48,096 nucleotides of DNA, taken from assembly GCA_023134135.1 (NCBI GenBank), contig JAGLVB010000011.1, forward strand, positions 1-48,096. The letters run 5' to 3'. Made by a program: the position numbers and the translations under genes. The notes under the pieces are model-generated. The model searched no databases. It saw only the letters and a program-made list of their open reading frames with translations, and was not told the origin of the DNA. This DNA is from Candidatus Aenigmatarchaeota archaeon (GTDB taxonomy: Archaea; Aenigmatarchaeota; Aenigmatarchaeia; QMZS01). This document shows, one piece after another, positions 37,858 to 45,900 of this stretch (the first letter of the stretch is position 1; each line of letters begins with the position of its first letter).

Positions 37858-38502
37858 TTAAGGTCTTGTATTTATTTGACACCCGGCACCAGAACTGGGT
37901 CCACACCCGTCAACAGTGCAGGTACCAGACAAACATTCATGGTACTTTTCACAAGATGCATCCTCTGGCTTGCCTGCACTACATACCCATACTTCATTAC
38001 AACAATCAGTTTTACATTCATAACTCTTACTGCATCCGACACCATCATTTTTTAAAGGAGAACAAGTAGTACTATCGCTACAATAACAATTACCACTGCA
38101 AAGAGAACCTGTATCTGTTGCAAAACAATAACCTGAAGCATCAGCTCCAGTAGGACAGGTTGTTACTCCACCTGTGTCGCCCACCTCACCAAAAGGGAAG
38201 ACTTCCCTGCATTTTTCCCTACAACCCTCATCATCCATGCTTGAATCCATATAATGCAACCTGCAGACCGTCAACAAACTATCTTCTTTGCCATCATTAG
38301 TTATATCACCAAGCATAATAGTTGAAGGTAACCTGCCTTCTTCAATATAAACCCTGCAACCCCTGTTAAAGGCATCCTGGTTAGTGACTAAACTCATATC
38401 TGTACCCTTGATAACCATATAGACTATCAAAACAAGAACTAAAATAGCAACAACAAGTATAATAACTGTATTCACAGGCAACTCAATTCCTTTCAACTTC
38501 AT
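37858..38502 (-). CDS. Pilin-like N-terminus with Cys-rich C-terminal region
   Basis: MKLKGIELPVNTVIILVVAILVLVLIVYMVIKG; many paired Cys. Confidence 0.65.
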   Translation of the reverse strand: MKLKGIELPVNTVIILVVAILVLVLIVYMVIKGTDMSLVTNQDAFNRGCRVYIEEGRLPSTIMLGDITNDGKEDSLLTVCRLHYMDSSMDDEGCREKCREVFPFGEVGDTGGVTTCPTGADASGYCFATDTGSLCSGNCYCSDSTTCSPLKNDGVGCSKSYECKTDCCNEVWVCSAGKPEDASCEKYHECLSGTCTVDGCGPSSGAGCQINTRP

Positions 38503-38530
38503 AATAAATAGTTAGATATAATATATAATT

Positions 38531-38833
38531 ATGGACCGCAAATTAAAAGGCATGTCGCTTCCAATAGAAACTATTGTGGTTATTGTTGTTTGTATCCTAA
38601 TTCTTGTAATTGTAATCTTATTTTTTGGCGGGGGTTTTAATCGTCCTGCCGGCGAGATAACTCTTGAGGGACAACTAAGAACAGAATGTAATGAATGGGG
38701 AAGGGATTCTGGTTATCAACATAATGCTGCTACTTACATGGTACCCGAGGCCTATCCTGCTTTGCATTTGAAATATGGTGAAGATGAAGCCGGAGCTACA
38801 GCCGCAAAAAGATTCTGCATTGGGCATGAATGA
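38531..38833 (+). CDS. Small pilin-like protein
   Basis: MDRKLKGMSLPIETIVVIVVCILILVIVILFF, paralogous to the frameshifted neighbour. Confidence 0.65.
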   Translation: MDRKLKGMSLPIETIVVIVVCILILVIVILFFGGGFNRPAGEITLEGQLRTECNEWGRDSGYQHNAATYMVPEAYPALHLKYGEDEAGATAAKRFCIGHE

Positions 38834-38838
38834 TAAAT

Positions 38839-39131
38839 ATGAAATTAAAAGGTATTTCATTATCAATAGAAACAATTATATAATTACTGTATATCTTCTG
38901 GTGCTTATAACAACTATCTTATTTTGGACAGAAGGATTTAATCCTCCGGCAAAAGATATAATTCTTGAAGGGAAATTGAGGAATGAATGTTTTGAATGGA
39001 ATATTATATCTGTTTACGAATATGACCTCAACAATTATGCAAATAATGATTATCCTGAATTACAAAAAAGATATCCCAAAACAGAAGAAGGTGTAAAAAT
39101 GGCTAAGAAATTTTGTGTTGGTTTAGAATAA
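38839..39131 (+). pseudogene. Frameshifted paralog of 38531-38833
   Basis: Frame from 38839 gives MKLKGISLSIETII then TAA; homology resumes in the frame of ORF 38775-39131 (IITVYLLVLITTILFW..GFNPPAKDIILEGKLRNECFEW). Confidence 0.65.
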
Positions 39132-40629: not shown

Positions 40630-40649
40630 TTTTAAATATATGCTATATT

Positions 40650-41840
40650 ATGTATATAAAAAAACTAGAACTAAATAATTTTAAAGGAATCTCTGAAATG
40701 GAAGTGAAACCAAAAAAAATAAATCTAATAGTTGGAAGAAACAATACTGGAAAAACAACACTAATAGAATCTATAAATTTGGCAAATAATATTCCTGAAA
40801 TAAACAGACACTATAAAGGATATTTGTCTAAATTAATAAATATTAATTCTGAAAAAGCAAGTATTACTATAGCCACAGAAGAAAATAAGAAAATAAAATT
40901 AGAATTTAAAAAGCCAAGTATTCAAAATGTTGGTATTGATTTTAAAAGAAAATTAATTAATGCTTTTAAAGAATATTTAACAAAAGTTGAAAAAAGAAAA
41001 TTAACCAAAGAATTAGAGAATTATTTGGAAAAGGTATTAAATAATATTTTAACACCTAAAATACTTTTAGATTTATCTCAAAATTGTATTTTTATTATAA
41101 TTAATGGAAAAAAGAAAATATATTATCCGGTTCATTTTTTAAGACAAAATGAATCAATAGAAAATGGAATTTCAGAAAACATAACTAATAAATTGAACAA
41201 AAAATTTAACTCGTATTTTGATTCTTTTATGCTACAGCTATTTATAGCCGAACAATACAAGCCTGACATTAAAACAAACAATAAATCTAAAAAAGTGATT
41301 TTTATAAAAAATCCAAAATCAGAAATAAATTTAAAGGGTGAAGAAGGAGAAACAACAAAAATTTATAAAATAGAAAATATTATTAAAGAATATAAATTAA
41401 TCAAGAATCTAAAAAGATTTAGTTTTGAATATTTGTCATTTGAAGATTCACCTGAAATTCCTTATGACTTTATGGGAGATGGATTTAAACAACTGGTTGG
41501 AATCTTATGGTGTTTAAGTGATGTCAAAGACAAGGTAGTATTAATAGAAGAACCAGAAACTAATATGCATCCTGGATACATTGGACAATTAATGAAATTT
41601 ATATTGGAACTTTCAGAAAAGATGAATATTCAGTTTTTTATAACTACCCACAATATAGATTCAATCGAATCTTTTTTTAATGAAGAAATTTTGTCAAAAA
41701 AAGAAAAAAAATATCTGGAAAAAGAATTTTCAATATTGAGACTGGAAAAAATAAAAAATCATATTATTCTTAATGAAATGTCTTATAAAAAAGCTAAAGA
41801 AGATAGAAAGGATCTTTTAATGGATTTAAGAGGAATATAA
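40650..41840 (+). CDS. OLD-like/AAA ABC-type ATPase
   Basis: KKINLIVGRNNTGKTTLIE Walker A, MGDGFKQLVGILW signature-like, VVLIEEPETNMHP Walker B, FFITTHNIDSIE H-loop. Confidence 0.88.
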   Translation: MYIKKLELNNFKGISEMEVKPKKINLIVGRNNTGKTTLIESINLANNIPEINRHYKGYLSKLININSEKASITIATEENKKIKLEFKKPSIQNVGIDFKRKLINAFKEYLTKVEKRKLTKELENYLEKVLNNILTPKILLDLSQNCIFIIINGKKKIYYPVHFLRQNESIENGISENITNKLNKKFNSYFDSFMLQLFIAEQYKPDIKTNNKSKKVIFIKNPKSEINLKGEEGETTKIYKIENIIKEYKLIKNLKRFSFEYLSFEDSPEIPYDFMGDGFKQLVGILWCLSDVKDKVVLIEEPETNMHPGYIGQLMKFILELSEKMNIQFFITTHNIDSIESFFNEEILSKKEKKYLEKEFSILRLEKIKNHIILNEMSYKKAKEDRKDLLMDLRGI

Positions 41841-41841
41841 A

Positions 41842-42423
41842 ATGAAAAAGATAATACTTTGTGAAGGAAAACAAGATATGACTTTCTATAAAGAGTTATT
41901 TAGTAAATTAAAACTAAAGACAAAAACTTACACAATTTTTGATGCAAATAATTGTAAATCAAACAAATATAAAGCAGAAGAAACTAAAGCGATAAGGAAT
42001 TTGGGTCACACCTCAAAAAATATACTCATAAAAGCCGAAAAAGGTGGAAATTTAGTTAAAGTTTATCCTTATTTAATAAGTCTAATAGATGATGATATAA
42101 AAACAATTTTATCCATAGATTTGGATATAAAAAATACAAGAGAAAAATTTATGGTTTATCTAAGAAAAAATTTTACTTCTAAAAATATAACTTTAACCTG
42201 TAGCAACATTAAAGAAAAAACAAATCTCATAAGCTGGGACATTCTTATAAAACATAACAAAACGTATTTAGGGAATACTTCTGTAATTGCATTTAACTCT
42301 AGTTTAGAAAAAGTAGCAGGTATTAAGAGATACCCTGAAGGAGCTGTTAAGATAAGAAATAAATCAGCTAAACTATTAAAAGAAAAAGAGATCTTTGAAT
42401 CTTTTAAAAATATTCTAAATTGA
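41842..42423 (+). CDS. TOPRIM-like (DUF3226/DUF4435-type) putative nuclease partner
   Basis: ILCEGKQDMTFYKELF and SIDLDIKN acidic motifs; 1 nt downstream of the ATPase. Confidence 0.6.
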   Translation: MKKIILCEGKQDMTFYKELFSKLKLKTKTYTIFDANNCKSNKYKAEETKAIRNLGHTSKNILIKAEKGGNLVKVYPYLISLIDDDIKTILSIDLDIKNTREKFMVYLRKNFTSKNITLTCSNIKEKTNLISWDILIKHNKTYLGNTSVIAFNSSLEKVAGIKRYPEGAVKIRNKSAKLLKEKEIFESFKNILN

Positions 42424-42436
42424 ACAAAATAACTCG

Positions 42437-43884: not shown

Positions 43885-44115
43885 TTGATGAAATACAAGA
43901 AATATACCCCAAATTTGATTAAAAAAATAGAGAAATATTCTACAAGAAGTATGAAGGAAATAAGTGAAACAATTGAAACTTATCCTGAAGGAATTGTTCT
44001 GGGTGTTGTGCTTGGAGTAATGGCTTACAGCAACCCAATAAATTTAGACCCAGATATTTTATATCAATCAGCAAATTACCTAAAAGATGTAATAACTCAT
44101 ATAAACCCATATTAA
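43885..44115 (+). CDS. Small hypothetical protein
   Basis: 76-aa ORF with TATA-like element (cataaatactt) upstream. Confidence 0.5.
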   Translation: MMKYKKYTPNLIKKIEKYSTRSMKEISETIETYPEGIVLGVVLGVMAYSNPINLDPDILYQSANYLKDVITHINPY

Positions 44116-44675
44116 TAATTAATCTGATAATTTTTCAGTTCTGCAATTCTGGCTTCAACAGTGTACTTAGGACAGACATATAGTTCACTTAATCCTTTAA
44201 TATTATAATCTAATTCTCTTACTTTTTTTTTAAAATCCCAGGCAGGCATAAGAATTATTCTAGCCAGGTAATTACTGGAATCTTCAAACACAAGTTCATG
44301 CTTAAAATTAATTAATTTATGACCTTCCAAATCATACTCTGATAATCTATGCGAGGTTTCATGAACAACGGTAAATCTTTTCTCAGAATCATCATCTTCA
44401 CCATCCACTATTATTTTAAATGCCGTTTTATCATTTTCATCGTAATATGGTATTAACCGTCCCTGTCCTTTCTTTAAATAAGGGTCTATCAAAACCTTAT
44501 CAATCCCTATAAAATTTGCTGATTCAACAGCAAGAAATGGAGGCTCGTAATCCTTTTGTATCTCATAAAAGAATCCGGAAACTTCTTTTTCAATATCCTT
44601 CTGGATATTACTTAAATCACACTTGATATTCTTTGCAAGAATACTATAACATTCGTCAGGAATTTTAATAGACAT
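44112..44675 (-). CDS. ImmA/IrrE-like HExxH metallopeptidase (copy 1)
   Basis: FTVVHETSHRLSE; paralog of 45349-45900. Confidence 0.7.
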   Translation of the reverse strand: MSIKIPDECYSILAKNIKCDLSNIQKDIEKEVSGFFYEIQKDYEPPFLAVESANFIGIDKVLIDPYLKKGQGRLIPYYDENDKTAFKIIVDGEDDDSEKRFTVVHETSHRLSEYDLEGHKLINFKHELVFEDSSNYLARIILMPAWDFKKKVRELDYNIKGLSELYVCPKYTVEARIAELKNYQINY

Positions 44676-45348: not shown

Positions 45349-45900
45349 TTACCTGAATTTATAAACTCCCAAGTCTTTAATTCTTTCTTCAACCGCGTAT
45401 TTAGGACAAACATAGAGTTTACTTAATTCCGGAGTATTGTAATTTAATTCCTTTGCTCTTTCTGTAAAATCCCAAGCAGGCATAAGAATTATTCTTGCCA
45501 AATAATCACTGGCATCTTCGTATCTCTCTCCATCTGGAATTACCTTTTTATGACCTTCTGCATTCCATTCCAACAAACTATGCCCGGTTTCATGAGCAAC
45601 TACAAATCTTTTTTCCTCAAGAGGATCTTCATCACCCATCAATATTTTAAAATCTCTTTCACCCAGAGAATTCGGATACAAAGCACCTCCACCTCCATTT
45701 AAAAAAGGAACTGGACGAAACTTATAAATCCCCGCAAGATTTGCGGGTTCAACAACAGAAAATGGAGGCTTATAATCTTTTTGTATCTCATAAAAAAATC
45801 TGGAAATTTCTCTTTCAATATTCATCCTAAGATCCTGTGGAGTGCAATTCAGGTTCTGCGCAAGAATTTTATAACATTCGTAAGGAATTTCAGTAGACAT
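45349..45900 (-). CDS. ImmA/IrrE-like HExxH metallopeptidase (copy 2)
   Basis: FVVAHETGHSLLE; shared SxxIPxECYxILAxN start and YLARIILMPAWDF. Confidence 0.72.
   Translation of the reverse strand: MSTEIPYECYKILAQNLNCTPQDLRMNIEREISRFFYEIQKDYKPPFSVVEPANLAGIYKFRPVPFLNGGGGALYPNSLGERDFKILMGDEDPLEEKRFVVAHETGHSLLEWNAEGHKKVIPDGERYEDASDYLARIILMPAWDFTERAKELNYNTPELSKLYVCPKYAVEERIKDLGVYKFR

Follow-up and report, generated by a model that had tools for sequence, protein, structure and literature searches.

A PDC-M38-like pair of genes for an OLD-type ATPase and a putative TOPRIM protein, inserted between the uL2 and fibrillarin genes of an archaeon

Described OLD-type systems and the gene pair

In PARIS, AriB is sequestered by a hexamer of AriA until a viral trigger frees it, and the released AriB cleaves tRNA (PMC12409363). 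AbiL is a two-gene abortive-infection system, and pairs composed of an AAA protein and a TOPRIM_OLD protein are treated as toxin-antitoxin modules (PMC10440598). The published phylogeny and survey of OLD proteins placed the split proteins of Class 4, to which PARIS belongs, in bacteria only; it also describes Cran1, an archaeal fused OLD protein that is essential for the cell cycle and does not act in defence, so that an ATPase of the OLD type need not serve immunity (PMC12796447). PDC-M38 is a candidate system of PADLOC composed of an ATPase (M38A) and a DUF3226 protein (M38B). According to an archaeal survey, most such PADLOC candidates are unvalidated, and DPANN archaea are enriched in several of them (PMC12988326). 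In the literature searched, no paper dealt with PDC-M38 or DUF3226 by name, including experiments on PDC-M38. Immunity is poorly charted in archaea, above all in those with small genomes.

The window analysed here is a stretch of 48,096 nucleotides (contig JAGLVB010000011.1 of assembly GCA_023134135.1) from a Candidatus Aenigmatarchaeota archaeon with a genome of only 0.99 Mb. A first-pass annotation had reported an ATPase of 396 residues and a small protein of 193 residues between the genes of uL2 and fibrillarin, and both open reading frames are present (Table 1). The upstream flank is uL2 (Ribosomal_L2_C, 1.9e-36); the downstream flank is fibrillarin in convergent orientation (1.5e-63), with Nop5 beyond. 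The two genes had been described as overlapping in an operon, but they abut on the same strand with a gap of 1 bp between the stop codon of the ATPase (TAA, 41838-41840) and the start codon of its partner (ATG, 41842). No clear defence island was seen around the pair in the window.

Table 1. Coordinates of the inserted cassette, of its two genes and of their motifs in the window
Feature	Position	Strand	Basis or conservation
Inserted cassette between the uL2 and fibrillarin stop codons, 1807 bp	40630..42436	.	53 bp in G004
ATPase gene, OLD/ABC-type (AAA_15/AAA_21; PDC-M38A-like), 396 aa	40650..41840	+	ORF and profile matches
Walker A GRNNTGKT, residues 29-36	40734..40757	+	GxNNTGK(S/T) in G009 and G307
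MGDGFKQLV at the ABC-signature position, residues 275-283	41472..41498	+	MGDGF invariant in aligned archaeal homologues
Walker B/D-loop VVLIEEPET, residues 296-304	41535..41561	+	kept in homologues
H-loop TTH, residues 332-334	41643..41651	+	kept in homologues
C-terminal DLRGI, residues 392-396, proposed partner-docking tail	41823..41837	+	D[LI]R shared by archaeal paired ATPases
Partner gene, small TOPRIM-like protein (DUF3226/PDC-M38B-like), 193 aa, proposed nuclease effector	41842..42423	+	
TOPRIM motif I CEGKQD (E8)	41860..41877	+	
Second-strand/GG(K)-type motif ILIKAEKGG, residues 61-69	42022..42048	+	KxExGGK conserved in the archaeal subfamily
TOPRIM DxD motif SIDLD (D93, D95)	42112..42126	+	D93 and D95 invariant in 4 aligned partners; DxD or DxN in the wider set

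The ATPase, its partner and their relation to known systems

The ATPase matches the Pfam families AAA_15 (1.9e-24) and AAA_21 (1.4e-21). Its best PADLOC match is PDC-M38A (6.9e-31, 106 bits), which aligns residues 2-394 with positions 4-366/367 of the profile PDLC04608. The next matches, AriA (5.4e-26, 90 bits) and AbiLi (1.1e-24, 86 bits), lie within about 20 bits of PDC-M38A and rank first for the homologues of G009 and G307, AbiLi being the top match for the ATPases of G009 and G362. These matches and the conservation of Walker A, MGDGF, Walker B and TTH indicate an ABC ATPase of the OLD type that lacks a fused nuclease domain. In the ATPases of bacterial plasmids, the sequence [ML]GDG[IM] is found where the archaeal homologues have MGDGF.

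Concerning the partner, the TOPRIM arrangement is expected to display a glutamate in the first strand and a DxD in a later strand. The motifs CEGKQD and DLD noticed in the first-pass annotation are both found, with MKKIILCEGKQD at the start of the protein and SIDLD at residues 91-95; the residues E8, D93 and D95 are present and conserved. When 13 partner proteins are aligned, hhhDxD or DxN always comes after a GG(K)-like turn, and hhhxEGxxD precedes both in the sequences that include the N-terminus. The spacing from motif I to the GG(K)-like motif is longer in the subfamily of the window than in bacterial DUF3226 proteins, by about 25-30 residues. As a single protein the window partner gives weak matches only: PDC-M38B (0.0024, 15.7 bits), DUF3226 (0.004; 17.4 bits, below the gathering cut-off of 27 bits) and OLD-like_TOPRIM (0.012). 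The partner of G307, an archaeon of another phylum, matches PDC-M38B (1.6e-5) and DUF3226 (2.7e-5) over a stretch that covers the EG and DxD motifs, and two of the 13 aligned partners, from G364b and G182, are above the DUF3226 cut-off.

The alignment of archaeal partners was compared with seven DUF3226 proteins from plasmids using hhalign, which gave a probability of 90% and a score of 46.7. After addition of the partner of G010 to the DUF3226 side, these values were 93% and 50.8, against 21.9 for the best of 200 column shuffles; a smaller comparison scored 39.2 versus 20.9 for the best shuffle. Searches of the PDB by sequence gave no match with the partner and only chance CRP matches with a two-row partner profile, and no relatives of the partner were recovered from the phage, plasmid and viral-contig searches. 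AlphaFold2, with the single sequence as input, gave no usable model (pLDDT 37), so that the assignment of the fold rests on motifs and profiles. It is very improbable that the partner is not a TOPRIM nuclease, its EG and DxD motifs being coincidental and the ATPase acting alone. The sub-threshold Pfam score and the low pLDDT would fit such a situation, but 13 partners, of which two score above the DUF3226 cut-off, share three motifs in an identical order, and the hhalign scores are far above those of the shuffles. From the profile-profile comparison and the three motifs of the relatives (EGxxD, GGK and DxD), the partner likely adopts a TOPRIM fold. The proposal of a split ATPase and TOPRIM-like module is thus borne out by the family matches of the ATPase and by the motifs E ... 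GG(K) ... DxD conserved in the partner.

The pair shares with PDC-M38 the gene order, the sizes, the domain types, a full-length ATPase match and the tight spacing from ATPase to partner, in an order common to archaeal and plasmid loci. It differs by far lower scores, 106 and 15.7 bits versus 501 (PDC-M38A) and 295 bits (M38B) for the strong PDC-M38 pair of the Acinetobacter sp. TAC-1 plasmid, by the longer spacing after motif I in the archaeal TOPRIM protein, and by a tail of the form DLRG[ILV] instead of EVR. Judging from these profile matches, the pair is most likely a divergent archaeal member of PDC-M38, a known candidate family. With regard to the earlier suggestion of a distinct archaeal version, the partner is indeed divergent, but the same architecture is present across archaea and on bacterial plasmids.

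A parallel with PARIS and other OLD-family systems had also been drawn. It holds for the split architecture, since PARIS also has separate genes for an ABC ATPase and a TOPRIM protein in an operon; the nearest known kind is nevertheless PDC-M38 and not PARIS itself. The partner gave no match to AriB in the PADLOC scan at E<=1, and by this criterion the pair is not PARIS, although by analogy its mode of action is probably similar. AbiL (AbiLi/AbiLii) likewise combines in two genes an ATPase and a TOPRIM-related effector, of the RloB-like type; similarity to RloB or AbiLii, however, was not seen for the window partner and was marginal for the partner of G307 (RloB, 0.0019). Fused OLD nucleases (Class 1/2, GajA) and the archaeal Cran1 contain the same ATPase and TOPRIM domain types, which are split in the window pair. 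Contrary to Gabija, in which a fused GajA is accompanied by the UvrD-like GajB, the window pair consists of split proteins with no UvrD-like helicase neighbour.

The uL2-fibrillarin slot

The cassette is inserted, was recently acquired and is not inherited vertically at this locus. In G004, whose uL2 and fibrillarin are 98% and 93% identical to those of the window, the two genes are neighbours (53 bp from stop to stop). In G001 the slot is occupied by an unrelated, roughly 115-aa ORF with no Pfam or PADLOC match, and in G007 uL2 is followed by a degraded remnant resembling this ORF and then by a different gene. The GC content of the ATPase (22%) and partner (25%) genes is low compared to uL2 and fibrillarin (38%) and to the whole window (32%). 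Taken together, the empty site, the other ORF, the remnant and the low GC define a variable slot. The small partner was undetected in all eight congeners searched (genomes 65-89% complete) and was found within the genus only in G000; the ATPase matches in these eight congeners are short partial alignments to other ATPases. The syntenic empty site is independent of the completeness of these genomes. The presence/absence comparison proposed in the first-pass annotation therefore speaks against vertical inheritance here. A search for terminal repeats yielded only short imperfect matches, and there is no integrase-sized ORF besides the pair between uL2 and fibrillarin.

These data bear on a housekeeping function, in which the pair would serve DNA repair or chromosome processing, as might be suggested by the cell-cycle requirement for Cran1, an archaeal OLD protein (PMC12796447). 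Vertical inheritance may indeed apply in G182, G242 and G280, where the pair occupies the same ABC-transporter neighbourhood. We nevertheless regard such a function as improbable in view of the restriction of the partner to G000 within the genus, its absence from the searches of eight congeners, the syntenic empty site, the low GC and the scattered insertion sites.

Distribution of the pair and proposed function

A profile of the ATPase was searched against 392 archaeal genomes (E<=1e-12) and detected 18 places. In 15 of them, the ATPase ends in D[LI]R and the adjacent gene encodes a small protein that carries the EG motif of TOPRIM; the others are two fused OLD proteins and one ATPase without a TOPRIM-like neighbour. 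Intact pairs in the same order are found at unrelated loci in G009, G307, G397 and G362. G009 belongs to the same family as the window genome (41% identity for the ATPase, 34% for the partner), while G307 and G397 represent another archaeal phylum. The neighbours of the pair in G362 are AbiEi/AbiEii genes and a transposase of the mutator family. Two of the 15 pairs are broken (G293 and G363), and in G103 the partner is truncated and lies at the end of a contig, leaving the ATPase side out of view. Finally, Ca. Aenigmarchaeota ex4484_52 (L046:4400-6900) has a heavily frame-disrupted copy of the pair adjoining eIF2-alpha and eIF6-like genes (named from reading of the sequence), which shows that the module decays after capture. 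Its recurrence in the same order, together with this decayed copy, indicates that the pair is not a chance association of ORFs. The archaeal pairs suggest that split architectures are more widespread than a bacteria-only Class 4 implies, although a strict definition of Class 4 may not include these pairs.

In G182, G242 and G280 (L088, L089 and L091; one family), an ATPase ending in DLRG and a DUF3226-like protein are encoded between genes read from their sequences as the permease and ATP-binding subunits of an ABC transporter. Another split pair was observed in G010 (L029:252-1776), from the same archaeal family, with a HEC-01A/PDC-M25A-like ATPase and a DUF3226-like partner of 152 aa. The ATPase loci of G010 and G002 were discarded as relatives, being of different types (HEC-01/PDC-M25-like; no TOPRIM match), as was the viral match L073, a different, fused OLD-like protein.

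In bacteria, the best plasmid match to the window ATPase is the ATPase of 386 aa of the Acinetobacter sp. TAC-1 plasmid, directly followed by a DUF3226 protein. Six further plasmids display the order ATPase-DUF3226, the ATPase being annotated in two pieces in one of them. Two plasmid pairs lie beside BrnT/BrnA and one beside RelE/NadS. Such neighbours, the plasmid location of the bacterial PDC-M38 pairs and the ready decay of archaeal copies (ex4484_52, G293 and G363) would be in line with a plain toxin-antitoxin or addiction module, where a TOPRIM toxin is neutralised by the ATPase for the persistence of the module, without specific anti-viral sensing; AAA antitoxins and TOPRIM_OLD toxins have been described in work on toxicity neutralisation (PMC10440598). 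We consider this reading unlikely, if credible: a large ATPase is costly in a genome of roughly 1 Mb if the module serves addiction only, and toxin-antitoxin and abortive-infection systems overlap (AbiL, PARIS), so that the distinction is partly one of emphasis.

Every archaeal paired ATPase inspected has D[LI]R within its last nine residues. The forms are DLRG[ILV], DLRGP, DLRG and DLR, with the near variants DLRQT and DIR followed by a few residues; these ATPases were found with a profile that contains the tail, so the conservation may include an ascertainment bias. In bacterial plasmids, EVR forms the C-terminus of each of the six ATPases inspected. The tail is close to the point where fused OLD proteins run on into TOPRIM, which makes a role in docking or control reasonable; the conserved D-L-R would likely be a docking element for the partner. 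It offers a concrete, mutable hypothesis for the control of the partner by the ATPase.

From the analogy with PARIS and AbiL, we infer a defence function, with the ATPase as sensor and antitoxin and the partner as effector. The reading we favour, with some confidence, is that of a horizontally acquired split-OLD immunity module of PDC-M38, in which the ATPase would hold a TOPRIM nuclease. In the predicted complex, the ABC ATPase would oligomerise and serve both as sensor and as an antitoxin-like scaffold on which the TOPRIM protein is kept inactive. A putative viral trigger, or a change of nucleotide state, would release or activate this protein, which would then cut nucleic acid (tRNA as AriB does, or DNA) through a two-metal site formed by E/DxD, and the cleavage would arrest the infected cell. 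More speculatively, and with distinctly less confidence, split ATPase/TOPRIM pairs with a D-[LI]-R tail could constitute a widespread archaeal immune class so far unrecognised as OLD-type, the tail being a latch that holds the nuclease off and the subfamily of the window, with its insertion after TOPRIM motif I, having a target of its own. The repeated split architecture in archaea and the empty site in a close relative bring forward compact two-gene candidates.

Two other groups of genes were observed in the window. Near the pair, two IrrE-like genes (Peptidase_M78; 44112-44675 and 45349-45900, both on the minus strand) share 52% identity and surround a gene of unknown family encoding 206 aa, forming a duplicated ImmA/IrrE-type cassette. 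At 37858-39131, several short genes share a similar hydrophobic start segment (KLKGxxLPxxTxxxxVV...); they probably encode pilin-like or secreted proteins, and their partial duplicates vary among congeners.
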